NCBI RefSeq assembly: GCF_029948125.1
Contig: NZ_JASAMB010000003.1
Location: forward strand, 124,001-188,000
Length of the DNA stretch: 64,000 nucleotides
Reading direction: 5' to 3'
Source of the DNA: Catellatospora sp. KI3
GTDB lineage: Bacteria > Actinomycetota > Actinomycetes > Mycobacteriales > Micromonosporaceae
The stretch's first letter is position 1. Each line of letters begins with the position of its first letter. A program made the translations under genes and the position numbers. Below, piece by piece: positions 3,478 to 34,488 of this stretch. The notes under the pieces are model-generated. The model was not told the origin of the DNA and made no database searches. It was given only the letters and a program-made list of their open reading frames with translations.

Positions 3478-3503
3478 ACGTCCAGGCAGGAGCGGCGAGC
3501 CCG

Positions 3504-4876
<1,373 letters not shown>

Positions 4877-4880
<4 letters not shown>

Positions 4881-6635: not shown

Positions 6636-6793
6636 GTCCCCAGCATCGCCGCCACCGGCCGCAGGGTCCGGCGGAGATCGGACACGGCATGCACCTACCG
6701 GCTCACCTCGGCGGACCTCGCCGTCCAGATCGTCAAGAGCCAGATCCGCGACCAGGACGGAGCCGTCGTCGCCGAGATCGGCTGAAAGCCCGC

Positions 6794-7204
6794 CTACGGC
6801 GCGTCGGCCATGGCGTGGTCGTAGGTCTTGCGGGCGAGGTGGACCTGCTCGATGTGGGTCTCGGCCCAGCTCTTGATCGCCCGCTGGACCGGCAGCAGGC
6901 TCTGCCCGAGCGCGGTCAGCTCGTAGTCCACCCGGACCGGGACCGACGGTGTCACCGTGCGGGTCACCAGCCCGTCGCGTTCGAGTTTGCGCAGGGTCTG
7001 CGTCAGCATCTTCTGGCTGGCGCCGGGGATGGTCCGGGACACGTCGCGGTAGCGCAGCGGCCCGTCGGCCAGGGCGCTGAGCACCAGGGTCACCCATTTG
7101 TCGCTGAGGGTGGCCAGCAGTTCGTGCCCGGGGCACTCCGACAGGAACGCGTTGTACTCCCGGCGGTCCTGCTCCCGCCGCTCGGCGGCGCGCATCGTCG
7201 TCAC
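6794..7204 (-). CDS. HxlR-family transcriptional regulator
   Basis: A 136-residue MarR-like winged-helix protein. The HxlR core is clear: a Cys near residue 24 (ECPGHELL), KWVTLVLSALADGPLRY, the recognition region around SQKMLTQTLRKLERDGLV, and the wing ending in VDYELTALGQSL. HxlR proteins often sense electrophiles or disulfide stress through that Cys and repress a neighbouring oxidoreductase. The GTG start lies 6 bases after a -10-like TAGGTT on this strand (7211-7216), so the message is probably leaderless. It is divergent from a quinone-oxidoreductase-like gene, its likely target. Confidence 0.92.
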   Translation of the reverse strand: MTTMRAAERREQDRREYNAFLSECPGHELLATLSDKWVTLVLSALADGPLRYRDVSRTIPGASQKMLTQTLRKLERDGLVTRTVTPSVPVRVDYELTALGQSLLPVQRAIKSWAETHIEQVHLARKTYDHAMADAP

Positions 7205-7286
7205 CGCCCCAACCTACCCCGGGGAGACTTACGCACTCACAGGTGCCTACTTACCGAAAGAGAGTGCTACGCCTAGCGTTCCTGAC
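7205..7286. promoter_or_regulatory. divergent promoter/operator between HxlR regulator and oxidoreductase
   Basis: Rightward: TTACCG (7251-7256), a 17-base spacer and TAGCGT (7274-7279), 7 bases before the oxidoreductase ATG. Leftward: TAGGTT on the minus strand, 6 bases before the regulator GTG. Between them is an inverted pair GCACTC (7233-7238) and GAGTGC (7262-7267), and two copies of ACTTAC (7227-7232 and 7249-7254). These repeats are candidate HxlR binding sites. Assignment is by position and motif only. Confidence 0.5.
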
Positions 7287-8219
7287 ATGAGAACCGTGAT
7301 CGTCCGCCGGTTCGGCGGCCCCGAAGTCCTGGAGATCGCCGACGTCCCGCAGCCCGAGCCCGGCCCGCGACAGGTGCGCGTCCGGGTCGCCGCCGCCTCG
7401 GTCAACCGCATCGACCTGTCCACCCGCAACGGCGCGCTCACCCAGGCGGGCCTGCTGGCCCCGGCGCCGCAGGCGTGGCTCGGCTGGGACGTCGCCGGTC
7501 AGGTCGACGCCCTCGGCGCCGGCGCCGCCCGGTTCGCGGTCGGTGACGCCGTCATCGGCCTGCGCGACCTGCTGTCGGCGCCTGGCGCCCAGGCCGAGTA
7601 CGTCGTGCTCGACGAGGACGCCCTGGCTCCGGCGCCGGCCACGGTCACCCTGGCGCAGGCGGCGACCCTGCCGCTGATCGGGCTGACCGCCGACCGGGCA
7701 CTGGCCCTGGCCGGGCTGGAACCGGGCCGGACGCTGCTGGTCACCGGCGCCGCCGGGGGCGTGGGCGGGCTGGTCCTGGAGCTGGCCGCGCTGCGCGGCA
7801 TCCGCACGCTGGCCCTGGCCGACGCCGAGGACGAGCAGCTGGTACGAGGCTTCGGCGCCACCTGGTTCCTGCCCCGCACCGAGCACCTCGCCGCCGACGC
7901 CCGGCGGCTGGTGCCCGGGGGAGTGGACGCGGTCATCGACGCCGCGACCCTCGGCATCACCGCGCACGAGGCCCTGCGCGGCGGCGGCGTCTTCGTCGCC
8001 CTGGTCGCGCCGTACGCGCCACCGGCGCTGCGGGGCACCCGGGTGGTCGTGCAGGAGGTGTACGCCGACGGGGCGCGGCTGGCGGAGCTGGCGGGGCTCG
8101 TCGACGCCGGGCGGCTCACCCTGCGCGTCGCCGACGAGCTGCCGCTGGAGGAGGTGGCGCGGGCGCACCAGCGGCTGGCGGCGGGCGGCCTGCGCGGCCG
8201 GCTGGTACTCGTGCCGTGA
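7287..8219 (+). CDS. zinc-independent quinone oxidoreductase-like MDR protein
   Basis: A 310-residue medium-chain dehydrogenase/reductase of the QOR subgroup. It has an N-terminal GroES-like domain (GPEVLEI, then SVNRIDLSTRNG) and a C-terminal Rossmann domain with the NADPH loop VTGAAGGVGG. The structural zinc cysteines of alcohol dehydrogenases are absent. It probably reduces quinones or alpha,beta-unsaturated carbonyls with NADPH in the cytoplasm. It has no Shine-Dalgarno sequence and starts 7 bases after a -10-like TAGCGT, consistent with a leaderless transcript controlled by the divergent HxlR protein. Confidence 0.9.
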   Translation: MRTVIVRRFGGPEVLEIADVPQPEPGPRQVRVRVAAASVNRIDLSTRNGALTQAGLLAPAPQAWLGWDVAGQVDALGAGAARFAVGDAVIGLRDLLSAPGAQAEYVVLDEDALAPAPATVTLAQAATLPLIGLTADRALALAGLEPGRTLLVTGAAGGVGGLVLELAALRGIRTLALADAEDEQLVRGFGATWFLPRTEHLAADARRLVPGGVDAVIDAATLGITAHEALRGGGVFVALVAPYAPPALRGTRVVVQEVYADGARLAELAGLVDAGRLTLRVADELPLEEVARAHQRLAAGGLRGRLVLVP

Positions 8220-8227
8220 CCGGGGTG

Positions 8228-8252
8228 GCGGGTCGCCGGTCCGGCGACCCGC
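8228..8252 (+). terminator. intrinsic terminator-like hairpin
   Basis: A perfect 12-base inverted repeat (GCGGGTCGCCGG and its complement) around a single T lies 8 bases after the oxidoreductase stop. It lacks a U-tract, as is common in actinobacterial terminators. Confidence 0.65.
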
Positions 8253-8497
8253 GTCAGCGGGGGGTTCTACCACGCTCGACCGAAGTCCAGGTAGGAGCGG
8301 CACGCGACCACAACCCTTTCGCGGACACGTCGGTCGGCTTCCCCCTCGGCGAACCGCGCCAGACCGGGAGCCGATGACCGGGCAGGCAGGCGGTCAGGCA
8401 ACGCGCATACCGGGTGACTGTCAAGGATCGAAATGCGACAGTTCGTCGGCGGCATGTCAGCACGGCTGCCGCACCGGCGCGGCACATCATCGAAGAC

Positions 8498-9217
8498 GTG
8501 AGCCGGCCCGGAAACCCAGTCGCAGTCGAAGTCGCCGAGCAGCTTGACTACTACCTGGTCTTCCCGAGCAGCGGCGCGGTCGCGCGCGGCCTGGCGCCGG
8601 AGGGCCTGGTCGTCGAGGAGTTCGTGCTGCGGCCTGACGGCACCACCTCAGGCCTGGACAGCGCGGGCTGGACCAGGGCCGGAGGCAGCTGGTGGACGGC
8701 GGCCGCGTTCAGCCGCACCCTGCGCGAGGACGCGCGCCTGCGCGCCAAGGTGCTGCCCGTGGGCCGGGCGGTCGCCCAGGCGGCATACCGGACACTGAGC
8801 GGCGCCGAACTACCCGCCGAGCCGCAGCTGCGCCGCCACTTCCTCGACCGGCTGGAACTGCCCGCCCCGACCGGGCTGGTGCCGGCGCAGGCCACCGCCG
8901 GCCAGCTCGGCTACCGGCTGCTGCTCGCGGGCGAGCTCACCGAGCACGGGCTCGCGCAGCTGCGCGGCGGCTGGCGGATGCCGCCGTTCGACCGTGCCGG
9001 CGACGCCGCGCACGGGGTCGCCGGACGCACCCGCTGGACGGTGGACGGCCAGCTGGTGTCCTGGACGCTGCGCCGCCTGGACGCCGGATGGGCCGTCGAC
9101 CTGGCCGTGGACCGGGTCGACCGCGCGCCCGCGCACACCGAGCCGCTGCTGCGCCGGCTCCGCGCCGAAGCCCGGGACCAGGGCCTGATCCCGGTCACCG
9201 TCACCCGGCTGCGCTGA
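8498..9217 (+). CDS. conserved hypothetical protein
   Basis: A 239-residue soluble protein that I do not recognise. There is no signal peptide or membrane segment. The composition is ordinary coding composition, with a helical middle (AVAQAAYRTLSG, LRRHFLDRLELP) and a C-terminal beta-rich part (GRTRWTVDGQLVSWTLRRL). The open frame extends upstream to an ATG at 8414, but those extra residues are basic and low in structure. I therefore place the start at the GTG at 8498 (VSRPGNPVAVEVAEQL), although no strong ribosome site supports either. It is transcribed alone, with a terminator-like hairpin on the left. Confidence 0.6.
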   Translation: MSRPGNPVAVEVAEQLDYYLVFPSSGAVARGLAPEGLVVEEFVLRPDGTTSGLDSAGWTRAGGSWWTAAAFSRTLREDARLRAKVLPVGRAVAQAAYRTLSGAELPAEPQLRRHFLDRLELPAPTGLVPAQATAGQLGYRLLLAGELTEHGLAQLRGGWRMPPFDRAGDAAHGVAGRTRWTVDGQLVSWTLRRLDAGWAVDLAVDRVDRAPAHTEPLLRRLRAEARDQGLIPVTVTRLR

Positions 9218-9337
9218 CCCGCCCGCGCCCTGCCGCTGGCCGGGACGCGCCGCCGTTGTACGCGGGTTGTATGTCCCTGGACGTAGCATCCGCAGCCGGA
9301 CTTCACCGGTCGTACCACGACATGAGGAGTGTCAGCT

Positions 9338-10657
9338 GTGCGGAAATCCCTCACCGCGGCGCTGGTCGCCGCCTTGCTCGCCGTCGTCGCCGTGCCCTCG
9401 GCCGCGTCGGCGGCGCCCGCGACGCCGGACTTCGGCCCGTCCATCGACGGCTACGCCGCCTACGACGGGCAGCGCACCTGCGACGCCAGCGAGAAGCCCG
9501 GCGTCGCCGGCTTCCGCGACATCCTGAACGCCGCCTACGGCTGGCACAACAGCGGCATCGGGCGCGCCTGCAACGACGGCGGGCAGAGCGAGCACAAGGA
9601 GGGCCGCGCCCTCGACTACTCGCTGGACTACTACAACACCGGCCAGCGGGCGGTCGCCAACGACATCCTGAACTGGCTGCTGACCACCGACCGCTACGGC
9701 AACACCAACGCCAACGCCCGCCGGCTGGGTCTGATGTACATCATCTGGAACCGCCAGATCTGGTACGCGTCCAATCCGTACGCGGGCTGGCAGACCTATG
9801 CCTGCAGCGGCGACCCCAGCGACTGCCACATGAACCACATCCACTTCAGCTTCAGCTGGGCCGGGGCGTTGAAGCAGACGAGCTGGTGGAGCGGCTCGGC
9901 GCAGGTGTTCGAGGCGGCCAGCAACGCGGCCTGGCGGCCGCTGCCGGTCAGCGGCAGCGCGGGACCGGTCAGCGGCAGCGCGGTCGCGAGCTTCTCCGCC
10001 GGCGGCGTGAAGTACGTCTACACCGTGCGCGGCGGGCAGGTGTTCGAGGCGGCCAGCAACAACGGCTGGAAGAACCTGTGGACCGGGATCGGCGGCGTCG
10101 ACGGCGGCGCGATCGCGGCGATGAGCCATGAGGGCGTCAAGTACATCTACACCATCGCGGGCGGTGTCGTGTACGAGGCCAACAGCGCCAACGGCTGGCG
10201 CAACCTGCCGACCGGGATCAGCGGGGTCAGCAATACCGCGCTGTCGGTGCTCAGCCTGGGCGGCGTCAAGTACATCTACACGATCGTCAACGGCATCGTG
10301 CACGAGGCGCACAGCGCCAACGCGTGGCGCAACCTGCCCACCAACATCCCCGCCTCGGCCGTCGCCGTGACCGCCCTGAACGGCGTCAAACTCATCTACA
10401 CCGTCAACGGCGGGCAGGTCTTCGAGGCGGCGAGCAACGCGGGCTGGCAGAACCTGTGGACCGGCATCAGCGGGGTCAGCGGCTCGACGCTGTCGGCGAT
10501 GACCCTCGGCGGCGTCAAGTACATCTACTCGGTGGCCGGCGGTGTCATCCACGAGGCGCACAGCGCCAACGCCTGGCGGAACCTGCCCACCGGCATCGGC
10601 GGCAGCCGGGTCAACGTCCTGGTCCTGAACGGCGTGAAGATCCTCTACACCCTGTGA
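9338..10657 (+). CDS. secreted peptidase-like protein with tandem beta repeats
   Basis: A 439-residue exported protein. The GTG at 9338 is chosen over one at 9329 because GAGGAG at 9324-9329 lies 8 bases before it. A Sec signal peptide ends near SAASAAPA. Residues about 30-180 resemble the M15-like/ARB_07466-type domain of actinobacterial secreted proteins: a paired-Cys frame, SEHKEGRALDYSLD, and a late CHMNHIHFS that supplies His/Asp ligands typical of zinc D,D-peptidases. The rest is about seven units of roughly 45 residues with the pattern GVKYIYT..GG.V.EA.S...W.NL.TGI. These probably form a propeller or solenoid for surface or glycan binding. The repeats are near-identical, suggesting recent duplication. 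Confidence 0.82.
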   Translation: MRKSLTAALVAALLAVVAVPSAASAAPATPDFGPSIDGYAAYDGQRTCDASEKPGVAGFRDILNAAYGWHNSGIGRACNDGGQSEHKEGRALDYSLDYYNTGQRAVANDILNWLLTTDRYGNTNANARRLGLMYIIWNRQIWYASNPYAGWQTYACSGDPSDCHMNHIHFSFSWAGALKQTSWWSGSAQVFEAASNAAWRPLPVSGSAGPVSGSAVASFSAGGVKYVYTVRGGQVFEAASNNGWKNLWTGIGGVDGGAIAAMSHEGVKYIYTIAGGVVYEANSANGWRNLPTGISGVSNTALSVLSLGGVKYIYTIVNGIVHEAHSANAWRNLPTNIPASAVAVTALNGVKLIYTVNGGQVFEAASNAGWQNLWTGISGVSGSTLSAMTLGGVKYIYSVAGGVIHEAHSANAWRNLPTGIGGSRVNVLVLNGVKILYTL

Positions 10658-10661
10658 CCCG

Positions 10662-10699
10662 CGTGCGGGTCCGGCCGCCCAGGCGGTCGGGCCCGCACG
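10662..10699 (+). terminator. terminator-like hairpin
   Basis: CGTGCGGG at 10662-10669 pairs with CCCGCACG at 10692-10699, with a second partly paired GGCCGCC/GGCGGTC element inside. It begins 4 bases after the stop of the secreted repeat protein. Confidence 0.6.
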
Positions 10700-10870
10700 T
10701 CCGTGCCGTTTCCGGTGATACGCCCATTTCTTAGGCGGCTCTCAGCCTTCTCCGAAGCCGCTCCGAGGATGCCCCGCCACGCTGACCGCGTTCACCCGTA
10801 GGTCACCCGTGGCTCGGTCTTCGTTCACCTCGGCGATGCCGAGCCGCGGGGCGAGAGAAATGGTATCCGC

Positions 10871-11800
10871 ATGCGACTGCGTCCGCGTCCCAAGCCGGGC
10901 GGGCCCGACCGAGGCGGCGGGGCGGTCCCGCAGCCGACCGCGCGAGCAGCCGACGACCGCGGCGGTCACGCGCTGCGTGCCCCGAGCCCGCTGCACGCCT
11001 TCAACCGGTACGAGATCAAGTACTTGGTGCACGCCTCGCGGCTGGCGGCGATCCGCGACGAGCTGCGCGCCCGCCTCGATCTCGACAGCTACTGCCCCGA
11101 GGGCGGCTACGGCGTGTGGAGCGTCTACTACGACACCCGGCTGCTGCGCTTCTACTGGGAGAAGGTGGAAGGGCTGCGGTTCCGCCGCAAGCTGCGGGTG
11201 CGGCACTACGGCGACCGCTTCACGATCGCCGACGACACCACCGTCTACGTCGAGATCAAGCAGCGGGTCAACCGGGTCACCCAGAAGCGCCGCGTCGGCA
11301 TGCCGTACGCCGATGCCAGGCTGCTGTGCGACGGCCGGCAGCTGGTCCGTCACGAACCTGGTCAGACCGCCTTCGTCCAGGAGGTCCTCGGCCTGGTCCA
11401 GGGCCTGGACCTGCGGCCGGTGGCGATGACCGGCTACCAGCGCGAAGCCTATGTGGGCCGCGACGCCGACCTGGGGCTGCGGGTCACCCTCGACCACCGG
11501 GTACGCGGCCGGGACCGCGAGTTCGACCTCGGTGCCGACGCGCAGAACCGGCTGATCATCCCGGCGTCGATGTCGGTGCTGGAGGTCAAGGCCAACGACC
11601 GCGTCCCGTACTGGCTGACCGACCTCGCGGCCCGCGCCGACCTGTCGGTGGTGCGGGTGTCGAAGTACTGCCAGAGCGTCGAGGCGTTCGGCCGGGCGCC
11701 GCGCTCGATCTTCCACATCCCCGACCACGACGCCGAGCCGCAGCTCACCACCCCCACCACGCACGAAGCCGCAGTGGCGGCACCGACCGTGAAGGCCTGA
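10871..11800 (+). CDS. VTC-domain (polyphosphate-polymerase-like) protein
   Basis: A 309-residue protein with the VTC/triphosphate-tunnel fold. After a low-complexity first 40 residues come NRYEIKYLV, RFRRKLRVRHYG, VYVEIKQRVNRVTQKRR and a late SVLEVKAN, the alternating charged strands that line the phosphate tunnel. In yeast the same domain polymerises polyphosphate from ATP. Bacterial forms are usually unassigned but travel with DUF4956 and CotH genes, exactly as here. The DUF4956 gene follows after 4 bases. The ATG at 10871 has only a weak upstream GAGAG, so a start slightly downstream is possible. Confidence 0.88.
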   Translation: MRLRPRPKPGGPDRGGGAVPQPTARAADDRGGHALRAPSPLHAFNRYEIKYLVHASRLAAIRDELRARLDLDSYCPEGGYGVWSVYYDTRLLRFYWEKVEGLRFRRKLRVRHYGDRFTIADDTTVYVEIKQRVNRVTQKRRVGMPYADARLLCDGRQLVRHEPGQTAFVQEVLGLVQGLDLRPVAMTGYQREAYVGRDADLGLRVTLDHRVRGRDREFDLGADAQNRLIIPASMSVLEVKANDRVPYWLTDLAARADLSVVRVSKYCQSVEAFGRAPRSIFHIPDHDAEPQLTTPTTHEAAVAAPTVKA

Positions 11801-11804
11801 TCTG

Positions 11805-12482
11805 ATGAACTTCGACCTGCAAGACCTCACCGGCACGTTCAGCGTCACCGACATCGTCATGGCGATGGCGCTGGCGTTCCTGCTCAGCGCGATCATCGGC
11901 TGGGTGTACCGGGCCACCCACCGCAACGTGTCCTACAGCCAGTCCTACGTGCAGACCCTGGTCATCCTCGGCATGCTCGTGTCACTGATCATGCTGGTGG
12001 TCGGCTCCAACATCGCCCGCGCGTTCGCGCTGGTCGGCGCCTTGTCGGTGGTGCGGTTCCGCAACGCGATCAAGGAAACCCGCGACGTCGGCTTCATCTT
12101 CCTGGTCATGGGCGTCGGCATGGCCGTCGGCACCCGCTTCTACAGCCTCGCCGTGATCGCCACCGCCGCGATCTGCCTGGTCATCTTCGTGATGTTCCGG
12201 TTCAGCTGGTTCCGCCTGTCGGTGCAGCGCCAGGTCGTCAAGGTCCAGGTGCCGGCCGACGGCAACCACACCGCCACCGTCTCCGACGTGCTCATCGTGC
12301 ACACCACCGAGTTCGAGCTGGTCAGCATGGAGTCGATCCGGGGCGGCGCCCTCACCGAGCTGATGTACACGGTCCGGCTGCGCAAGGGCAGCGAGCCCGG
12401 CGACCTGGTCACCGCCCTCGGGCAGGTGACGGCCGGTCAGCGGGTCACCGTCCTCACCGGGTACGACCAGACGGACCTGTGA
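11805..12482 (+). CDS. DUF4956 membrane protein
   Basis: A 225-residue protein with three or four membrane helices: about residues 14-35, 48-66, 70-85, and 100-130 including GFIFLVMGVGMAVG. They are followed by a cytosolic alpha/beta tail of about 90 residues. The conserved DUF4956 segment FALVGALSVVRFRNAIKETRDVGF is present. The family function is unknown. The tight VTC - DUF4956 - CotH order suggests a membrane complex in which a phosphate polymer or phosphoryl group is made inside and used by the CotH kinase outside. That role is inference. Confidence 0.88.
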   Translation: MNFDLQDLTGTFSVTDIVMAMALAFLLSAIIGWVYRATHRNVSYSQSYVQTLVILGMLVSLIMLVVGSNIARAFALVGALSVVRFRNAIKETRDVGFIFLVMGVGMAVGTRFYSLAVIATAAICLVIFVMFRFSWFRLSVQRQVVKVQVPADGNHTATVSDVLIVHTTEFELVSMESIRGGALTELMYTVRLRKGSEPGDLVTALGQVTAGQRVTVLTGYDQTDL

Positions 12483-14068
12483 TGGCGGCCGACCTCCAGC
12501 CCGGCTCGCGGGCACCGGCGAGCCGGCTCAGGCACCGCGTCCCGGTGCGGGTGCGCCACCACTGGAAGCTGCTGGCCACCTGCGCGGCCGTGGTCGTGGC
12601 ACTGGTCGTGCTCGCGGGCAACGTCCGGGTGGCCCCGATCGTGACCAGCCAGGCAGCGGCCAAGCACGACGAGGTGGTCATCGACGTGGCGGGCACCGTC
12701 GACCTGTTCGACCCCTCCGTCGCCCACACGGTCACCCTCACCTACGACGAGGCCGACTACCAGCGCATGTTCGACGAGTACATGGAGTCGGGGGACAAGG
12801 AGTACCTGCGCGCCGACGCGACCGTCGACGGCACGCTGCTGCGCGACGTCGGCATCCGGCTCAAGGGCAACTCGACCCTGTCCGGGGTCACCCACAACGG
12901 CCAGGCGAGGTCGATGTTCGGGGACCGGGACGGCGACGGCGGCATGCCGCAGCCCGCGGGCGGCGGCGGGCAGGGCCGGCCCGGTGGCGGGATGATGGGC
13001 GGCGGGTTCGGCCGTACCAGCCTGGACAGCAGCAGACCCGAGGAGCTGCCGTGGCTGATGAGCTTCGACGAGTTCGTCGACGGCCGCCGCTACCAGGGCC
13101 GCAGCGAGATCGCCGTGCGGGTCGCGGGCATGGGCGGCGGCAGCACCGTGGTCAACGAGGCCGTCTCGCTGTCCGTGCTCGCCGCGGCGGGGCAGCCCAC
13201 GCAGCGGTACACGTACGCCGGGTTCCGGGTCAACGGGGCGCCGGCCAAGGCGCGGCTGCTGGTGGAGCACCCCGATGAGGACTTCGCCGACGGTCTCGGC
13301 AACGGTGTGCTCTACAAGTCGCTGGCCACCAGCCAGTTCACCTACCAGGGCGAGGACCCGACCGAGTACGAGGACGACTTCAAGCAGATCAACGACAAGG
13401 GCAGCCACGACCTCAAGCCGGTGATCGACCTCGTGAAGTGGGTGAACGAGGCCTCCGACGCCGACTTCGACGCCCATCTGGCCGACCACGTCGACATCGG
13501 CTCGTTCGCCTCGTACACCGCGCTGCAGAACCTGCTGCTGAACTTCGACGACATGGCCGGGCCGGGCAGGAACTACTACCTCTGGTACAACCTGGACACC
13601 GAGCGGTTCCAGGTCATCGGCTGGGACCACAACCTCACCTTCAGCGGCAGCGCCACCACCGGCCCGCACGACTCCACCACCATGGGCGGCGGCCGGGGCG
13701 GCTTCCCCGGCGGCGACTTCCAACCTCCCGAGGGGATGCAGCTCCCCGACGGCGTGCAGCTGCCGGAGGGCATGCGGCCCGGCGGCGGGGGACGAGGCGG
13801 CTTCGGCGGGCTGGGCGGCAACAAGCTCAAGGAGCGGTTCCTGGCGTCCGAGGCGTTCAAGAAGGCATACGAGGACGCCTACCGGCAGCTGTACCAGAAG
13901 ATCTACGCCGACAAGGCCGCCGAGAAGGCCCTCGATCAGATCGCGGCGACGTTGGCCAACGTCGCCGGAGCCGACGCCACCGCCGTCAAAACCGACACCG
14001 ACCAGCTACGCGCCTTGGTCCAGGAGCGTACCGCCGCACTCGCGAAAGACGCGGTGATCACGTCCTGA
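12482..14068 (+). CDS. CotH-family protein kinase, membrane-anchored
   Basis: A 528-residue protein with a short cytosolic N terminus, one membrane anchor (about residues 20-42) and a large outer domain. CotH signatures are present: GIRLKGNSTLSG, VNEAVSLSVLAAAG, LLNFDDMAGPGRNYYLW and GWDHNLTF with the metal-binding Asp-x-Asn. CotH kinases are atypical protein kinases that phosphorylate spore coat proteins in Bacillus. Two Gly/Pro/Met-rich insertions (around residues 155-180 and 400-445) are unusual and could be flexible or substrate-like. The start overlaps the DUF4956 stop (TGATG); a GTG one codon earlier is equivalent. Confidence 0.88.
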   Translation: MAADLQPGSRAPASRLRHRVPVRVRHHWKLLATCAAVVVALVVLAGNVRVAPIVTSQAAAKHDEVVIDVAGTVDLFDPSVAHTVTLTYDEADYQRMFDEYMESGDKEYLRADATVDGTLLRDVGIRLKGNSTLSGVTHNGQARSMFGDRDGDGGMPQPAGGGGQGRPGGGMMGGGFGRTSLDSSRPEELPWLMSFDEFVDGRRYQGRSEIAVRVAGMGGGSTVVNEAVSLSVLAAAGQPTQRYTYAGFRVNGAPAKARLLVEHPDEDFADGLGNGVLYKSLATSQFTYQGEDPTEYEDDFKQINDKGSHDLKPVIDLVKWVNEASDADFDAHLADHVDIGSFASYTALQNLLLNFDDMAGPGRNYYLWYNLDTERFQVIGWDHNLTFSGSATTGPHDSTTMGGGRGGFPGGDFQPPEGMQLPDGVQLPEGMRPGGGGRGGFGGLGGNKLKERFLASEAFKKAYEDAYRQLYQKIYADKAAEKALDQIAATLANVAGADATAVKTDTDQLRALVQERTAALAKDAVITS

Positions 14069-28118: not shown

Positions 28119-28769
28119 TCAGCTGCGCATCAGCGGGACCATCAGGTGGGTGCCCAGGACGTCGTTCATGACAGGCGGGGTCTGGGTGTCGTACTTGCCG
28201 GTGCCTGAGCGCACCGACAGGAGCATCCGGCCGAGCGCGCCCGGAGCGAGCTCATAGGCCTGCAACGCCGAACCCCGGAAGATGACCGGCTTGCCGTACT
28301 GCGCGGCCAGCCGAACCATCACCCCGCCGATGAGTTTCTGGCAGGTCGAGCACGGGCTGTTGGTCTGGTGCGCCTCGACGATGACGGCGAGCGCCGTCTC
28401 CTGGTTCAGGTTCACGGCAGCCGCCTCGAACCAGGCCAGCAGCGCCTGGAACTCGGAGTGCGCGACACCGGAGACGCCCTTGAGCTTGTGCGGTTCGACG
28501 GTGTCCTTGGCGGCGGCCGACTCCTGCTCGATCTCCCCACCGACGCGCCGGACCACGGTCAGGCCGGCCAGCAGCGAGTTTCCAGACGCCCCGCCGGGCA
28601 GCGCCGCCCGGTGCAGGGCGGGGGCGGTGACGGTGTAGTACGTCGCCGGGGCGGTCCGCAGCAGCACGTCGAGGGTGTCGGCGACGGCCCACAGGCTCCC
28701 GCCGGTATGGGTCACGCCACCCGCCTCGTACTCGTACTGCTCGCCGGTGAAACTCAGGTGATTGGGCAT
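28119..28769 (-). CDS. candidate free-standing zinc deaminase (CDA fold)
   Basis: A 216-residue protein that I do not recognise by name. The second half contains GVAHSEFQALLAWFEAA, then about 30 residues later SPCSTCQKLIGG. This H-x-E plus P-C-x-x-C pair is the zinc and proton-shuttle signature of cytidine-deaminase-fold enzymes. Spacing and intervening strand (ALAVIVEAH) fit. The N-terminal about 100 residues (GEQYEYEAGGVTHTGG) are unfamiliar. Substrate could be a nucleobase, nucleoside, nucleic acid or small metabolite. AGGAGG 5 bases before the ATG is strong. It lies downstream of the RiPP operon on the same strand, but 237 bases separate them. Confidence 0.6.
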   Translation of the reverse strand: MPNHLSFTGEQYEYEAGGVTHTGGSLWAVADTLDVLLRTAPATYYTVTAPALHRAALPGGASGNSLLAGLTVVRRVGGEIEQESAAAKDTVEPHKLKGVSGVAHSEFQALLAWFEAAAVNLNQETALAVIVEAHQTNSPCSTCQKLIGGVMVRLAAQYGKPVIFRGSALQAYELAPGALGRMLLSVRSGTGKYDTQTPPVMNDVLGTHLMVPLMRS

Positions 28770-29006: not shown

Positions 29007-30794
29007 CTAGTCGGCCATCGCCAATCCCGTGGGGTGAGGCGCGTTCAGGGCCAGGACGCCAAGCGCAGAGAGCTCCTCGGCCAGTGCGCGTGCCGGGCCC
29101 GGGGAGTCCCAGCCGACGCGTGATCCGACGTCGGCGATGCTCCTCGTTCCATCGCAGGCGATCACGAAAGCCGCGGCCCGGGCTGTCAGCGTGAAGAGTT
29201 TGATCGCCTGCGGCTGTGCGTATGGCAGCACGATCACCAGGGTCTCGGCTGTCGCGTCCGAGCTGGGGTCCTCGGTGAGCATGGCGATCGGGTCCCGCGC
29301 GTAGAGCTCCGCGCGCGCCCCGGGCACGAGCGAGGGCCGGCACCCTGCGGCCGCTTCGTCGCTCCAGGCCGGGCACCGCGTATCGAGTCGGAACAGGGAG
29401 CCATCGCAACTCACGGATGCCTCGTCGCACGCGCTCAGAAGCTGGTCGGCCACCCGGCTCAGATCTGAGAGCTCCGCGGGCGGCGAGTCCGCCTGTTCGA
29501 GCTTGCGGCGGATCGCGGCGAGCAGCGGAGGCAGCCCGTCGCTCGGTGAAGCCTCGACGACGTCCTCTGCTTCCGCGCCGGAGGCATCGGGATGGACAGC
29601 ACGGTGAATCGCGGCTTCAAACGCCTGCGGGAACCGGCACTGCGCTTGCACGTGCTCGACGAACAGCCGGCCTCGCCTTCCCACCTCGGCGCGGAAGGGC
29701 TCGGCGAGGGCGAGGGCGAGGCACTCCGCGATCTCCTCATGATCGTTGGTATCGCGCACGATCCAGCAGTTGTACCCGTGCGCGAGCCGCTGGCGTTCCG
29801 GCTGCTTCGCCGCGATCTCGTGGGACAGCAGGACTGCAGTCCCTGTGGCCATGACCTCAAGCGCGATGACCGGGTTGTGCGCCGTGATCGGGAAGTCCTG
29901 CTCGAGGCAGCACGCCACATCGCAGCCGCGAAGGAACTCGGGCACTCGCCAGTGGGGCATGAACGGGATCCGAATGACGTGGTCGCGCAGGTCGAGCTCC
30001 TCGACGAGAGAGGCGAATGCCTCCTCCTCGGGTGCCTCGCCCTGGACCATGGCCGCGAGCCGGACCGGCACCCCTCGATCCAGGCAGTTCCGGATCGCGC
30101 GGACCAGGGGCAGGACACCCTTGAAGCGTCCGAGCTTGCCGAACACCCCGATGGTGGGCGCGGTCGATGCCGGCGCGACTTCGAGCGCTGGGCCGTCAGG
30201 AGCGAATTCGTCGAGAGGAACGAAGTGCCCGTCGTTCGGCATCATCCTCGAGCGCGGAACACCGATCTCCGCGAGCGCCTTGGGCAGGCCCCTGACGCCG
30301 ATGACGACGTCAGCGGCGCGGAAGATCCCGTCGTACAGCGAGCGCATCCCAGGCTGGTGCCATAACCGCCCCACATCGCTGCCCGCGGTGTTGATGACAT
30401 GGGGCCTGCCGGTGAGACTCGCGGCGAGGTGACCGGCGACGCCGTACGGCTCCAGGTACCAGGAGACCACGCACTCGAGATCGTGCTCCTTGATCGTCTC
30501 GATCGCGAGCCCGGCGAGCTTGGTCGCGTAGGGGTTGTGCCACGGCACATGCCACTGGCCATAGTGGTCGGCCAGCGTCTGGTGGATGCGGACCGTTCCA
30601 GGACCGTAGTGGCCGCCGAGGCGCGTTCGATCCTCCGGGCGCAGCTGGATTCGATACTGATCCTCGACCTCCGCCGCATTGGTGACCACGTGAACGGCGT
30701 GACCGCGTGCGGCGAGCCCGTGGGCGAGACGATATGTCCTCGCGCTGACGCCTCCCTGGATCGGAGGGTACTTCCCGATCAGGCAGATACGCAC
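29007..30794 (-). CDS. GT4 glycosyltransferase with PqqD-like C-terminal domain (RiPP cluster)
   Basis: A 595-residue protein. Residues 1-400 are a GT-B fold of family 4: RICLIGKYPPIQGGV at the N terminus, GVFGKLGRFKGVLPLVRAI at the donor lobe, and an ALEVMATGTAVLLS block replacing the usual E-x7-E. Residues about 500-590 (FTLTARAAAFVIACDGTRS, LAEELSALGVLAL) resemble the PqqD/RRE winged helix that binds RiPP leader peptides. The GTG start overlaps the DUF692 stop by 16 bases. I infer a leader-guided sugar transfer to the precursor. An unrelated surface-sugar role is less likely given the coupling. Confidence 0.75.
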   Translation of the reverse strand: MRICLIGKYPPIQGGVSARTYRLAHGLAARGHAVHVVTNAAEVEDQYRIQLRPEDRTRLGGHYGPGTVRIHQTLADHYGQWHVPWHNPYATKLAGLAIETIKEHDLECVVSWYLEPYGVAGHLAASLTGRPHVINTAGSDVGRLWHQPGMRSLYDGIFRAADVVIGVRGLPKALAEIGVPRSRMMPNDGHFVPLDEFAPDGPALEVAPASTAPTIGVFGKLGRFKGVLPLVRAIRNCLDRGVPVRLAAMVQGEAPEEEAFASLVEELDLRDHVIRIPFMPHWRVPEFLRGCDVACCLEQDFPITAHNPVIALEVMATGTAVLLSHEIAAKQPERQRLAHGYNCWIVRDTNDHEEIAECLALALAEPFRAEVGRRGRLFVEHVQAQCRFPQAFEAAIHRAVHPDASGAEAEDVVEASPSDGLPPLLAAIRRKLEQADSPPAELSDLSRVADQLLSACDEASVSCDGSLFRLDTRCPAWSDEAAAGCRPSLVPGARAELYARDPIAMLTEDPSSDATAETLVIVLPYAQPQAIKLFTLTARAAAFVIACDGTRSIADVGSRVGWDSPGPARALAEELSALGVLALNAPHPTGLAMAD

Positions 30795-32395
30795 GGGCGG
30801 ACCTCGATAAGGTGCCCCGCCGCCAGCGAGAGCACGAGTTCCTGGATCGGCTCTGCCTGCGCCGCATGGATAGTCGTCCAGTCGTCCAGCGTGAGCAGCA
30901 GCGCCGCGACGCCGGGATCGAGCCAGAAGACACGCGCGCTGTCCGCGCCGGGCACGACAGCCACGGTCTGATCGGGCCCGCGGTCGAGCGTCGCCGAGTC
31001 TGCGCCGTCGAGCACCCGCTTCAGATCGAACGGGGTCTTAAGGATCTTGAGATCGCTGGCGGAGCGCAAGTCAAAGCTCTCCCCGGCTGCGGGGGGCGCG
31101 AAGGGGTACCGCCGCTGCTCCCGCTCGCGCGAGGAGAAGGTCGCGGACGCGATCATGTGCTCGAGGCGTACAAGGTCGACGAGGTAGTCGGGTTCGACCC
31201 GGCCGGCTGATGCGACGATGAAATCGTGCAACTGCCGGGCGTTCTCGCGCCGGCCCGGGGACCGCGGTGGCTCGACGGCAGCGAACTCGCGGATCAGGTG
31301 CGCGGCGTGCGCGTCCAGGCAGCGGCAGGTCGCAGGCAATATGCTCTTGATCTTCTCCCAGCGTTTGGCCAGGACGAGGCTGCCGACGAGCGCCAGGCGA
31401 TCCAGGTGGTCGCCGCGGACGCCGCCAGGGGCGCCGCGGAGCGGCTCTGCCGAGGCGTACCCCGCCGGGTTCGACAGATGTTCGAGGATCGAGCGCTGGC
31501 GGTCGAACAAGGTTCGTCGTCGCGCGGAAGCGCTGACCGTGGGCCGAGGCGGCGGCACCTCGCTCGTGCCCGCGGATCGGGGGAGATCCGCGGCGGCCTC
31601 GTCGCGGATGCGCCGGGCCTGCTCGACGTCGACCAGCACCTCCATGAAGCCCTCGAAGGCCTGGTCACGCTCGATGATGATCGCGTCAGGCTGATGTCGC
31701 CGCAGCGCCTCGGGCAGGAGCGCGAACGTCGCGGGGGACACCTGGCGGTCATGTGTGTCGATGGCGAGGTCGTGGCTTTCGCAGCCCCCCGCGAGGTGGA
31801 TCGCCCGGACTGCTCGCGGCGGCAGGGCCGCGAGGAAGGCGCCCGCGTCATACCCGTGATTGCTGGAGTTGATGCGGAGATTCTCGAGGTCGAGCAGGAT
31901 TCCCGCCCCGGTACGGTTGCAGACCTCCGCGAGGAAGTCGGCCTCGAAGACCTCGGAGTCATGGTAGTCGAAGTAGTAGGAGATGTTCTCGAGGACCACG
32001 GGGAGGCCGACGCCATCCTGCACGATGTCAATGTTGTCGCAGAGGATCCGCAGAGTCTGCTCGGTCCTCGGCAGCGGCAGGAGTTGGGCATGATCGAGAC
32101 CGGGGACTTTGGTGAATGCCAGGTGCTCGCTGTACCACGGCACCCCCAGCCACTGCGCCCATTGCCTGACGTCGCTGAGATAGCCGGAATCCGGGCGCTG
32201 GGCCGTTCCTAAAGACAGGCCCACGCCGTGGAGGAACACCGGGCAGAGCTCCGGCAGCTGCCGGAAGTCCCGGCGGTGCTCGGGGATGCTCCGGATGCAG
32301 TGATCGACTGTGATTTCGAGCGCCTCGATGGGCGGCATGCTCTCGCGGATGAAGGGTCCGACCTCGCTGCGGTAACCGACCCCGATGAGCGGCAC
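30779..32395 (-). CDS. DUF692 (MNIO) oxidative enzyme fused to a partner-like domain
   Basis: A 538-residue protein. Residues 1-270 carry the DUF692 metal-site pattern: LHGVGLSLG, WYSEHLAF, VVLENISYYF, LLDLENLRINSSNHG, IHLAGG, IDTHDRQV and IIERDQAFEG. DUF692 enzymes (MbnB, TglH and relatives) use two or three irons to rearrange cysteines or other residues in ribosomal peptides, together with a partner protein that presents the substrate. Here the C-terminal about 260 residues appear to be that partner fused on. They include a winged-helix-like end (VFWLDPGVAALLLTLDD, LVLSLAAGHLIEV). The GTG follows GGAG, which overlaps the precursor stop (9-base gap), so precursor and enzyme are coupled. Confidence 0.85.
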   Translation of the reverse strand: MPLIGVGYRSEVGPFIRESMPPIEALEITVDHCIRSIPEHRRDFRQLPELCPVFLHGVGLSLGTAQRPDSGYLSDVRQWAQWLGVPWYSEHLAFTKVPGLDHAQLLPLPRTEQTLRILCDNIDIVQDGVGLPVVLENISYYFDYHDSEVFEADFLAEVCNRTGAGILLDLENLRINSSNHGYDAGAFLAALPPRAVRAIHLAGGCESHDLAIDTHDRQVSPATFALLPEALRRHQPDAIIIERDQAFEGFMEVLVDVEQARRIRDEAAADLPRSAGTSEVPPPRPTVSASARRRTLFDRQRSILEHLSNPAGYASAEPLRGAPGGVRGDHLDRLALVGSLVLAKRWEKIKSILPATCRCLDAHAAHLIREFAAVEPPRSPGRRENARQLHDFIVASAGRVEPDYLVDLVRLEHMIASATFSSREREQRRYPFAPPAAGESFDLRSASDLKILKTPFDLKRVLDGADSATLDRGPDQTVAVVPGADSARVFWLDPGVAALLLTLDDWTTIHAAQAEPIQELVLSLAAGHLIEVRPCVSA

Positions 32396-32404
32396 ATGGT
32401 CTCC

Positions 32405-32638
32405 TTAGGCGATGCAGCTACATCCGCAGTTGGTGACGCACCTTCCGGCCACGGTCTCGGACGGGTCCTGCGGTCGGATCGTCCACTCGACGATCATCCC
32501 TTTGCTCGCCGCCTGGGTGAGCCGCTCGCCGATCGCACGGGTCTCGTCGGTCCGCTCGATGCTGAGGGCCTTGCGGCGCGCCTCGCCAGCCTCGATGAGC
32601 TGCTGCTTCAGTTCTGCGTACTTCTCCGCATCAGACAT
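32405..32638 (-). CDS. RiPP precursor peptide with four-cysteine core
   Basis: A 77-residue peptide. The first about 60 residues are charged and helical (AEKYAELKQQLIEAGEARRK, SIERTDETRA) and look like a leader. The C terminus is GRCVTNCGCSCIA, four cysteines in 10 residues and no other cysteine in the peptide. GAGGAGGA lies 5 bases before the ATG, a very strong ribosome site. It is the first gene of a coupled operon with the DUF692 enzyme and the glycosyltransferase. The core differs from methanobactin cores in motif order. The most likely modified residues are the cysteines; Thr, Ser or Cys could carry the sugar. Confidence 0.82.
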   Translation of the reverse strand: MSDAEKYAELKQQLIEAGEARRKALSIERTDETRAIGERLTQAASKGMIVEWTIRPQDPSETVAGRCVTNCGCSCIA

Positions 32639-32727
32639 CGGGTCCTCCTCGAAGGCCGCATCGCGAAATCATGGACGCGTACAGCCAACTTACAAAACTA
32701 ACTAATAGTAATCAAGGGAGACACAGA
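32639..32727. promoter_or_regulatory. divergent promoter region of the RiPP cluster
   Basis: A distinctly A/T-rich patch (about 32688-32714, ACTTACAAAACTAACTAATAG) separates the precursor and the asparagine synthetase. It holds short repeats (ACTTAC, ACTAAC/ACTAAT). I cannot fix -35 and -10 elements with confidence. GGGAG lies 8 bases before the synthetase GTG. Confidence 0.45.
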
Positions 32728-34488
32728 GTGTGCGGCATCGTCGGGTACCACGATCGTGAAAGCTCGCACAATCTGTCCGAAATCGCGCTAGCCTTGGCTC
32801 ACCGCGGTCCCGATGGCACCGGCGTGTGGACCGGCGACGAGACCGGACTGGCGGTCACCCGGCTCAGCCTGCTCGACCTCGAGCACGGCGCCCAGCCGAT
32901 GGCGACTGAGGACGGACGAGCGGCCGTGGCCCTCAACGGCGAAATCTACAACCACGCCAAGCTGCGCGCGGAGCTCGAAAGCGAGGGGATCTCGTTCCAG
33001 GGCCGCTCGGACACCGAGGTCCTCCTACGCGGTTTCATCCGCTGGGGACCACGAGTGGTGGAGCGTCTCGAGGGCATGTTCGCCGTGGCGATGAGCCAGG
33101 GCCGCAGACTGCACCTCGCGCGTGACACGTTCGGCATGAAGCCACTGTTCTGGTGGCTGTCACGCGACCGGCAGGCGTTGGCGTTCGGTTCGGAGATCAA
33201 GGCGTTGCTGCGCTTCCCCGCCGTGCCGCGCCGCCTCGACCCCACGGCGCTCGTCGAGGAGATGGTCTTCGGCCACACTCTGGGAGTCCGGACCCTGCTC
33301 CGCGACATTCAGCAACTCGCGCCCGGGACTCTCATGACCATCGAGCCTCGACACTCCCGGCTCGAGATCAGCACCGAGCGCTTCGCGTTGCCGCGCCTCG
33401 GCGCGACGCCCCCGACCGCGCGGCAGGCCGGTGAGCAGATCGGCGAGCTGCTGCGAGAGTCGGTCGCCCTGCACATCAACGCCGATCACCCCGTGGTTAC
33501 ATACCTGTCCGGAGGCGCCGACAGCACGCTTCTGGCATCGCTGCGGCGAGATCACCGAGGATCGAAGTCGTTCGTGGTCGCAGACGGCAAGCATGTCGCG
33601 GACCTGGCTTACGCGGCCGAGGTGGCGAATGCGCTCGGCCTCGAACACGAGCCGATCCTCACCCCCCGCGAACCTCAGCTCGCCTGGCTCGCGAACGCGG
33701 TCCTGGCCATGGAGGCCCCTCGCACTCCCACGCTCGCGCTCGTGTCGGCTCCTCGCGTGCGCTCCTTCACCAAAGCAGCGCTGTGCGGCGAGGGCGCGGA
33801 CGAGCTGCTCTCGGGCTATCCCATGCACGAGCGGCCGGGGCCGTATCTCGATCGATTCGAGCAACGCCTCGCGCGGCTGCAGAGCACGAGCAGGCTGCCG
33901 GCATCGGCATTCGAAACCACCGAGGCGCAGCTCGCCGCGCTGCGGCCAGATCGTCACCGTGATCAGCCCTCGGCTGTCTACGACTTTCTCCTCCACCAAG
34001 TCATGCCCAACAAGCACCTGGCCATCTGGGATCGCGGCGCGATGGCCGCGTCGCTCGAGATTCGCATGCCGTACCTCACGCGAGGGATCCGCGACTTGGC
34101 GCTGAGCCTGCCGAAAGACCGGACTTCCGGATCACCGAAGGAGCTGCTCGCAGCGGCAATGCAGCGTGCCTTGGGCGCCCCACTCGCCGAGCGGATCGCG
34201 ACACGCACCAAGACCGCCGCACCCGACGCGCTCGAGGTGACGCGCCGCCGCCTGAGCAATCTCGCCACCTCGGCGATGCCCTCGGCCTGGCACAGCCGGC
34301 ATCCACTGCGGCGAATCTGCACGGCACCGCACATGCTGTTCATGCTCGACTTGTTCCTCATCGCTTTCATCGATCGCGATGGCTCATTTCCCCACGACTT
34401 CGCCGCCGAGGCCCTCTACACGCGCCATGAAAGCGACCTTCGGGCAGCCCACGAATCCGCTTGCGATGCGTTGCTGGAAGGGCGATGA
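32728..34488 (+). CDS. asparagine synthetase (glutamine-hydrolysing) of the RiPP cluster
   Basis: A 586-residue AsnB-type amidotransferase. After the initiator comes Cys2 (VCGIVGY), the glutaminase nucleophile, with LAHRGPDG and LNGEIYNH of the Ntn domain. The synthetase domain has the ATP loop YLSGGADSTLL and GEGADELLSGYP. Both half-sites look intact, so it should form an amide from a carboxylate using glutamine. In RiPP clusters AsnB homologues amidate or cyclise peptides (lasso cyclases are relatives). Divergence from the precursor across a shared promoter suggests it acts on this peptide. The GTG is fixed by the required Cys2. Confidence 0.88.
   Translation: MCGIVGYHDRESSHNLSEIALALAHRGPDGTGVWTGDETGLAVTRLSLLDLEHGAQPMATEDGRAAVALNGEIYNHAKLRAELESEGISFQGRSDTEVLLRGFIRWGPRVVERLEGMFAVAMSQGRRLHLARDTFGMKPLFWWLSRDRQALAFGSEIKALLRFPAVPRRLDPTALVEEMVFGHTLGVRTLLRDIQQLAPGTLMTIEPRHSRLEISTERFALPRLGATPPTARQAGEQIGELLRESVALHINADHPVVTYLSGGADSTLLASLRRDHRGSKSFVVADGKHVADLAYAAEVANALGLEHEPILTPREPQLAWLANAVLAMEAPRTPTLALVSAPRVRSFTKAALCGEGADELLSGYPMHERPGPYLDRFEQRLARLQSTSRLPASAFETTEAQLAALRPDRHRDQPSAVYDFLLHQVMPNKHLAIWDRGAMAASLEIRMPYLTRGIRDLALSLPKDRTSGSPKELLAAAMQRALGAPLAERIATRTKTAAPDALEVTRRRLSNLATSAMPSAWHSRHPLRRICTAPHMLFMLDLFLIAFIDRDGSFPHDFAAEALYTRHESDLRAAHESACDALLEGR

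Follow-up and report, generated by a model that had tools for sequence, protein, structure and literature searches.

A candidate RiPP cassette with a partner-fused MNIO, a GT4 glycosyltransferase and an asparagine-synthetase-like enzyme in Catellatospora sp. KI3

The stretch of Catellatospora sp. KI3 DNA analysed here, called the window below, is 64 kb long and comes from a host with a G+C content of about 72%. At positions 29007–34488 it carries four genes, encoding a small peptide, a multinuclear non-heme iron-dependent oxidative enzyme (MNIO, DUF692), a GT4 glycosyltransferase and an enzyme resembling asparagine synthetase (AsnB). These very probably constitute a cassette for a ribosomally synthesised and post-translationally modified peptide (RiPP). 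The precursor gene (32405–32638, minus strand) encodes 77 residues ending GRCVTNCGCSCIA, and has the ribosome-binding site GAGGAGG (32644–32650, minus strand) five bases 5′ of its ATG. Nine bases (32396–32404) separate it from the MNIO gene (30779–32395, minus strand), which overlaps the glycosyltransferase gene (29007–30794, minus strand) by 16 bases. AsnB (32728–34488, plus strand) is divergent. The first-pass annotation had described the same four genes, with the strong ribosome site, the 9-base gap, the 16-base overlap and the divergent AsnB with its Cys2, and all of this agrees with what was found except for the AsnB start. The earlier start at 32671 is replaced by a GTG at 32728, which gives a protein of 586 residues beginning Met-Cys2 and an intergenic region of 89 bp (32639–32727).

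A scan for the MNIO through 84,980 species genomes found one relative, in Mycobacterium sp. ACS1612, which is 79% identical over the full 538 residues. The scan requires exact 8-residue stretches, and therefore sees close relatives only. The Mycobacterium locus reproduces all four genes and their arrangement, with AsnB divergent and beginning at the same start, and 61 of the 89 aligned bases of the intergenic region are identical. Comparison of the 64-kb window with the 17.6-kb Mycobacterium locus by blastn (E 1e-5) gave a single alignment, of 5,472 columns at 83.1% identity, covering window positions 29046–34488. The shared block begins 39 bases inside the 3′ end of the glycosyltransferase gene and ends at the stop codon of AsnB, and so consists of the cassette alone. 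All four genes are under purifying selection. The nonsynonymous and synonymous rates between the two copies (dN/dS, NG86) are 0.14/0.58 for the precursor, 0.13/0.42 for the MNIO, 0.10/0.54 for the glycosyltransferase and 0.10/0.46 for AsnB. Loss of the small open reading frame or of its cysteines from homologous loci, and separation of the glycosyltransferase from AsnB, had been named beforehand as signs against the proposal. In Mycobacterium the reading frame is present with all four cysteines and the two enzymes are linked, and a more divergent cluster described below also links precursors, AsnB, MNIO and glycosyltransferase.

The Mycobacterium precursor has 80 residues, ends GRCVVYCGCSCIA and is 77% identical to that of the window. 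Codon positions 1, 2 and 3 differ by 0.16, 0.09 and 0.32, the third changing most; on this pattern the small open reading frame is judged to be a real gene under purifying selection. The putative core, residues 65–77 (32408–32446, minus strand), contains Cys67, Cys71, Cys73 and Cys75. Eleven of its 13 residues are identical in the two copies, and the differences (TN in the window, VY in Mycobacterium) lie between the first and second cysteines. The core ends Cys-Ile-Ala, and the C-terminal Asp-Asn typical of nitrilobacillins is absent. No Pfam or NCBIfam model matches the precursor over its cut-off, the best Pfam match being unrelated (E 0.075), and the Pfam scan and the sequence itself reveal neither DUF2282 nor repeats of the EGKCG type. 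Judged by eye, the N-terminus is not like a signal peptide. A profile of the precursor found only its own genome among 376 genomes, together with one weak match (0.005) that contained a stop codon and was dropped, and plasmid records gave no match.

The MNIO (538 residues) matches PF05114 with 250.7 bits (E 1.8e-74; gathering score 25), in agreement with its earlier description as a DUF692 enzyme. In the catalytic domain, approximately residues 1–265 (31601–32395, minus strand), eleven positions with residues of the metal-site type (H56, H91, E136, D169, N172, N179, H200, D213, H215, E242 and D244) are invariant in all 43 rows of an MNIO alignment, 42 of which are different. The C-terminal half, approximately residues 296–538 (30782–31510, minus strand), corresponds by profile comparison to a complete partner protein, with a DUF2063-like helical domain followed by a winged helix of the recognition type. 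When compared by hhalign with six separate partners of the BufC type it scores 92.7% (E 4e-7, 206 columns), where an unrelated control alignment scores 0.1%. In addition, tblastn alignments to plasmid hits run on from the MNIO into adjoining DUF2063 genes, as far as residues 403–418 (hits H2–H10). On these two grounds the window protein is read as a natural fusion of MNIO and partner, in line with the earlier description of a fused MNIO. Against the Pfam DUF2063 model the fused half scores 13.6 bits, under the gathering score of 27.2, and the fused half of the Mycobacterium protein matches HvfC at E 0.09. Partners of PME-type 2 have been described as resembling DUF2063/recognition-domain partners while lacking a Pfam signature (PMC12452194), a description that the sequence of the fused half fits. 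A second candidate for such a fusion, in an Aeromonas caviae plasmid record (hit H1, reaching residue 482), was rejected, as it consists of two genes with stops between them.

The glycosyltransferase (595 residues, 81% identical in Mycobacterium) is also of the type first proposed. All of its matches over cut-off are to Pfam families of the GT4 type: PF00534 (9e-12), PF13579 (4e-10), PF13439 and PF13477. About 190 residues extend beyond these domains, and the first-pass annotation had called this tail PqqD-like. Compared with 21 PqqD sequences by hhalign, the tail scores 35–43% (E 2.5e-4 to 3.9e-4), and all ten column shuffles of the comparison score lower (best shuffle 9%, E 0.0036). The tail of the more distant homologue from cluster L106, described below, gives matches to NGO1945_C (E 0.0027), PqqD (0.005), ApyI (0.006) and HvfC (0.018), all below curated cut-offs; the source protein of NGO1945_C is a PME-type 1 partner (PMC12452194). 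The window tail itself has no match in Pfam (E up to 10) or NCBIfam (E up to 0.1), and that of Mycobacterium matches PqqD at E 0.18. In our reading the tail probably contains a PqqD-like recognition domain (29040–29402, minus strand), with all matches below curated cut-offs. Recognition domains fused to glycosyltransferases, there named PF00535, have been reported from structure mining (PMC12710340).

AsnB scores 312 bits against TIGR01536 (cut-off 267), and has Cys2 together with the glutaminase and ATP motifs. It is identical to the Mycobacterium protein at 476 of 586 residues (81%). Its nearest solved structure by sequence is 7ylz, which is named as a hydroxyamidotransferase. In PesC, an asparagine-synthetase-like enzyme of the nitrilobacillin pathway, a Glu/Tyr pair has been tied to activation of the carboxylate (PMC13060819). 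The GE-GADE-GY motif of AsnB should hold the equivalent pair, Glu359/Tyr364, if motif and spacing are a reliable guide.

The most surprising part of these findings is the link between this GT4 family and cysteine-rich tails. Relatives of the glycosyltransferase were counted at E 1e-5 in plasmids, E 1e-22 in phylum-level genomes and E 1e-30 in class-level genomes. Only three of 72,556 plasmid records matched, two plasmids of Rhizobium gallicum and one of Agrobacterium, and none matched the tail. In R. gallicum IE4872 a small protein ending SCKGCNGCAAGCVS adjoins the glycosyltransferase, and in Agrobacterium two small proteins, ending ACKGCSACSSCGGGGSCTVH and ACRGCSGCNSCSGQSCTVH, do so. The glycosyltransferase of R. 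gallicum R602sp is likewise preceded by a homologue of the small proteins. Among 376 phylum-level genomes there was a match in one, G696, again beside such a small protein, with the tail region SCDQCGNYCAQTCVA followed by 11 more residues. The single match in 50,697 phage records, MT837770.1, is probably a misassigned plasmid fragment. A protein with a cysteine-rich tail stands beside the glycosyltransferase, or in the same cluster, at all seven loci read (the window, the Mycobacterium locus L041, L049, L050, L055, L102 and L106), and directly adjacent to it in L049, L050, L055 and L102; L102, the phage record, repeats L050 in this count, and R602sp (L103) is an eighth record. By lineage, such partners occur in four of the four read: adjacent in R. 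gallicum, Agrobacterium and G696, and in the same cluster in genome G981.

The proteins of the 'Bacteriophage sp.' record look the same as those of the Agrobacterium plasmid pAtCFBP6625a. The glycosyltransferase of R602sp (L103, 2086–3368) is annotated in two pieces and so looks broken, whereas the copy in strain IE4872 is intact. A Pfam scan of three of the small proteins (from R. gallicum and Agrobacterium) assigned them to no family. They form part of a group of proteins of approximately 150–230 residues characterised by a WHxF...Y..FC...HH domain; every member listed here except that of L058 also has a cysteine-rich stretch at or near the C-terminus. Its members lie at L049 8312–8899, L050 7695–8294 and 8335–8928, L055 2838–3338 (minus strand), L056 6857–7540 (minus strand), L057 5926–6381 and L058 5872–6357. 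Beside them is found either a GT4 enzyme, an ABC transporter or an adjacent unannotated protein, or else a radical SAM gene at a distance of about 1 kb. They look like RiPP precursors with large leaders. Escherichia coli plasmids of about 7.9 kb also carry a protein of the WHxF type. The copy in pHUSEC41-3 ends CGCSGKGCGAGCSCNSR, and its neighbours are an ABC transporter and a cupin-domain protein (L056, 4339–7540); this is possibly an unrecognised peptide system.

A profile was built from five glycosyltransferase catalytic domains (window, Mycobacterium, Rhizobium gallicum, Agrobacterium and G696) and run against 325 class-level genomes (E 1e-30). It found only its own genome and G981, whose glycosyltransferase had no part in the profile. 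The G981 cluster (L106) comprises, in order, two precursors, AsnB, a partner, an MNIO, a long-tailed GT4 enzyme and a fusion of AsnB with a methyltransferase, with gene ends overlapping or close. The precursors are of 62 and 67 residues and end ASCNGCNTCSAAVEISNEVTR and SSCGGCNGCMGCSM respectively; the MNIO is 40% identical to that of the window and the glycosyltransferase 41% (382 columns). This unexpected, divergent cousin supports the combination of enzymes found in the window. A further relative by MNIO (35% identical), on a plasmid of Streptomyces sp. NBC_01527 (L107), has no glycosyltransferase or AsnB annotated. By eye, the only obvious target common to the precursors of L106 and L107 is a cysteine-rich stretch close to the C-terminus.

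The flanks of L106 (1383–3020 and 12857–16000, both minus strand) encode a second glycosyltransferase, a weakly matching protein like a 2-oxoglutarate (2OG) oxygenase and a carbamoyltransferase whose tail is winged-helix-like. L106 may therefore be part of a much larger RiPP cluster. The L107 cluster (6720–13252) has a 56-residue protein with NCAGCGGTTCVSC upstream of the MNIO, and a 274-residue protein in the partner position that matches nothing in Pfam or NCBIfam. It looks like another uncharacterised MNIO cluster with a cysteine core.

On the basis of these observations we infer, with fair confidence, a RiPP pathway consisting of oxidation of core cysteines by the MNIO, attachment of a sugar to the core by the GT4 enzyme and amidation of the C-terminus by AsnB. 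The 64-residue N-terminal leader would be bound by recognition domains that the enzymes themselves carry: one in the fused partner of the MNIO, and a second, probable one in the glycosyltransferase tail. With that partner acting in cis, the MNIO would then oxidise at least one cysteine of the core. That it acts on core cysteine is probable. The product, going by clade, would most likely be a 5-thiooxazole or a related heterocycle, as no named models come nearer than BufB and HvfB; HvfB, BufB and FonB are closely related and this group is reported to install 5-thiooxazole, as are MNIOs with PME1 partners more broadly (PMC12668002). 5-Thiooxazole specifically is a possibility to which we would give somewhat less than an even chance. 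The GT4 enzyme would attach a sugar to the same cysteine-rich core, on cysteine or on the conserved Ser74, and that it acts on the peptide at all is quite probable. The AsnB-like enzyme would adenylate the C-terminal carboxylate and amidate it with ammonia derived from glutamine, or proceed to the nitrile as PesC does. The precedents are TsrC and ScdTA, for amidation of peptide C-termini, and PesC, for which the MNIO acts first and the reaction continues to the nitrile; the features that decide between amide and nitrile are described as not clear (PMC13060819). C-terminal amidation by AsnB we favour by a narrow balance. There is no transporter, peptidase or immunity gene within the four-gene cassette, and maturation and export would therefore rely on other host functions, unless the product stays intracellular; a role in metal binding is a guess.

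Several results weigh against this picture. The MNIO scores 211 bits against BufB (cut-off 310) and 179 against HvfB (cut-off 360), its best NCBIfam models, and thus lies outside both named groups. A tree of 43 rows places it beside BufB (95/78), in a grouping flagged as long branches meeting, and in a tree of 23 rows it lies on the other side; it is a long branch whose position shifts with the sample, which makes the 5-thiooxazole guess a weak one. FonB tolerates Arg before the cysteine and needs a small residue after the one that is modified (PMC12668002). By analogy this points to Cys71 (followed by Gly) and perhaps Cys73 (Ser), and not to Cys67 (Val) or Cys75 (Ile). Conservation of the four cysteines at 77% identity is not striking by itself, since just two close copies were found. 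Residues 55–119 of the glycosyltransferase tail (29010–29582, minus strand) match a plant lectin, 1dlp, in the PDB by profile (E 5e-4); we judge this match doubtful, and the recognition-domain reading does not account for it. Lectin aside, PDB sequence searches with the tails gave nothing below E 0.6. The AlphaFold models of the glycosyltransferase tail and the MNIO fusion have predicted local distance difference test scores (pLDDT) of 38.9 and 35.9, too low for a fold search. As for L106, its AsnB is just 30% identical to that of the window, and in the 23-row tree its MNIO joins that of L107 (85/91, not starred) and not those of the window and Mycobacterium. Its partner (279 residues) matches PqqD (7e-4) and ApyI (8e-4) below curated cut-offs, scores 0.2% against BufC by hhalign and has an N-terminus resembling RiPP peptides of the NHLP clan (6.8e-7), so that its role as a partner is likely rather than proven.

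The alternatives differ in how much of the cassette they give up. The AsnB-like enzyme might amidate a uronic-acid sugar added by the glycosyltransferase, or close a lactam in the manner of the lasso peptide and β-lactam synthetases. Related models do score on it (XrtA/PEP-CTERM amidotransferase 236 bits, lasso cyclase NF033535 128 bits), β-lactam synthetase is among its PDB matches (33.6 bits), and L106 has two AsnB genes, so that roles may differ. Asparagine synthase is however the sole NCBIfam model listed over cut-off, the lasso cyclase cut-off of 525 is far off, Cys2 is retained along with the glutaminase motifs, and no lasso-type leader peptidase was found among the six window neighbours scanned. 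This alternative is therefore unlikely. The MNIO, for its part, might hydroxylate, or cleave at, a residue other than cysteine, the four cysteines serving as ligands, disulfides or sugar sites. Known MNIOs hydroxylate Asp, Phe and homocitrulline, which is a further point against 5-thiooxazole, and cleave the N–Cα bond at Asn (PMC13174530, PMC13060819). The relatives of the glycosyltransferase by cysteine-rich tails have no MNIO annotated within 9 kb, and the window core does contain Asn, although Tyr takes its place in Mycobacterium. We think this quite unlikely, because the residues that vary between the two cores are not the cysteines, the nearest named models modify cysteine, and the cysteine-rich stretch is the one obvious target common to the L106 and L107 precursors.

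Two more radical alternatives detach enzymes from the peptide. If the GT4 enzyme were linked by chance and had some other substrate (lipid, polysaccharide or small molecule), the size of the GT4 family, its nearest PDB sequences (unspecified glycosyltransferases and a BshA), the weak scores of the TIGR02149 and BshA models (30.6 and 25.3 bits) and the lectin match in its tail would all be natural. The 16-base overlap with the MNIO gene, the probable recognition domain in the tail, the homologues of one small protein adjoining each of the three plasmid matches, and the cysteine-tailed proteins beside the G696 enzyme and in the G981 cluster make this improbable. Finally, the small open reading frame might encode a regulatory or metal-binding protein next to an unrelated metabolic operon. 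The lack of export, protease and immunity genes and of any family match for the precursor could be read in this way, yet the partner fused to the MNIO is of a peptide-binding type, open reading frames with cysteine-rich tails also head the L106 cluster, and the precursor gene lies nine bases from the MNIO gene and is under purifying selection; we consider this last alternative highly improbable. Within the preferred RiPP pathway we can go further, and more speculatively. The cassette might define a new RiPP class, in which a cysteine-rich core is oxidised by an MNIO with its partner in cis, glycosylated by a dedicated GT4 family (possibly S-linked, and outside the glycocin enzymes) and then amidated or nitrilated, giving a sugar-capped cysteine-heterocycle metallophore, with the same GT4 family modifying cysteine-rich tails in Rhizobiaceae and actinobacteria. 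This is tentative, and on balance doubtful.

Among known systems the closest are the bufferins and captophorins (BufB, HvfB, FonB and PME-type 1 partners), which offer the nearest MNIO models, a partner of DUF2063 and recognition domain, and a precursor containing cysteine. Here, by contrast, MNIO and partner are one protein, GT4 and AsnB are added, the cassette has no DoxX or sigma factor, and the precursor lacks the EGKCG repeats and DUF2282. Nitrilobacillins share the use of an MNIO and an asparagine-synthetase-like enzyme on one RiPP precursor (PMC13060819). In the pes cluster the partner is separate, and there are also a pseudo-MNIO, an HExxH enzyme, a transporter and M16 peptidases, with no glycosyltransferase listed. 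The residues modified there are Asp and Pro and the C-terminal residue is Asn, whereas the cysteine core here has no Asp. The MovX type of MNIO, with a C-terminal recognition domain, is a natural fusion to a peptide-binding domain (PMC13419390); judging by its description, the difference is that the cassette enzyme includes the DUF2063-like domain in its fusion as well, placing the whole partner in cis. The L107 cluster resembles the cassette in its MNIO and small upstream protein, and has a FAD/NAD protein, a 2OG oxygenase and an ABC transporter annotated in place of the glycosyltransferase and AsnB. Glycocins, as S- or O-glycosylated RiPPs, provide the precedent for the glycosylated ribosomal peptide with cysteines that is expected here. 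Glycocin glycosyltransferases belong to GT2; the cassette enzyme is a GT4 with a probable recognition tail, and does not match the known glycocin family.

It had been claimed at first that no characterised pathway has this combination. This has to be corrected on one point, since an MNIO with an AsnB-like enzyme is known from the nitrilobacillins (PMC13060819). What does appear new in the literature searched is the glycosyltransferase, together with the natural fusion and the four-cysteine core. A word search of the open-licence literature, which misses papers and is weak evidence, brought up no MNIO system that includes a glycosyltransferase. Beside MNIO and RiPP, 'glycosyl' occurred only in a reference (PMC13174530), a vancomycin example (PMC12707348) and a general statement (PMC12710340). 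On equally weak evidence, no natural MNIO–DUF2063 fusion was found there, including passages of PMC12452194, PMC13419390, PMC12257519, PMC12707348, PMC13174530, PMC12668002 and PMC12710340. The natural fusion should be useful, because an artificial HvfB–HvfC fusion gave a highly active enzyme, which was used for cofactor work (PMC13419390), and the system of four genes is minimal, so that its chemistry could be rebuilt quickly. If our reading is correct, this would be the first MNIO product to carry a sugar, as far as found in the literature searched, and would point to a GT4 family tied to cysteine-rich peptide tails across phyla.

The distribution of the cassette supports its being a self-contained unit that has moved horizontally. 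The first-pass annotation had suggested transfer from base composition, and the block common to a distant Mycobacterium and absent from ten other genomes of the same genus strengthens that suggestion. The content of G and C at third codon positions (GC3) is 0.82–0.86 in the four genes, below the median of 0.91 for 31 frames in the flanks, as first claimed. The flanking frames were selected for GC3 of at least 0.8, which biases this control, and 4 of the 31 lie below 0.86; the lower GC3 would thus give modest support for a foreign origin. No tRNA genes occur in the 64-kb window. An empty site is not demonstrable, because the flanks of the cassette are not syntenic in relatives. The idea that the enzyme is simply the usual MNIO of the genus was rejected, as it occurs in none of the ten other genomes; nine have only MNIOs at 31–35% identity, and the tenth has no match at E 1e-30. 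In 397 order-level genomes the MNIO matched in 25 at E 1e-40, its own included, and only that of the window aligns past residue 318. In 396 phylum-level genomes its C-terminal half found its own genome and one weak match (4.7e-4) with stops, which was dropped. Two MNIO loci from genomes of the same family (L108 and L109) have no match to the glycosyltransferase or AsnB within 19 kb, and three scans of viral contigs brought up no relative.

Beside AsnB in the Mycobacterium locus, and outside the shared block, lies a gene for a B12-binding radical SAM RiPP C-methyltransferase (3317–5332, minus strand; TIGR03975, 662 bits). Searching the window genome for it, with no positive control, gave no match. 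Adjoining the cassette in the window is a deaminase-like protein (28119–28769, minus strand) with a weak cytidine-deaminase match below cut-off. Its gene occurs in 3 of the 10 other genomes of the genus at 90–95% identity without shared synteny. Two loci (L070 and L071) align to it and to short stretches of the window at 16.6–17.3 and 56.3–56.6 kb that are not collinear, and another (L072) aligns to it only. The second MNIO of the same genome (L001, C25, 1310–3227, minus strand) adjoins a membrane protein with a Gly/Ser/Cys-rich tail, which we take to be TIGR04222, a Pfam scan having given no match. An MNIO beside a membrane protein with such a tail is a common arrangement in actinobacteria.

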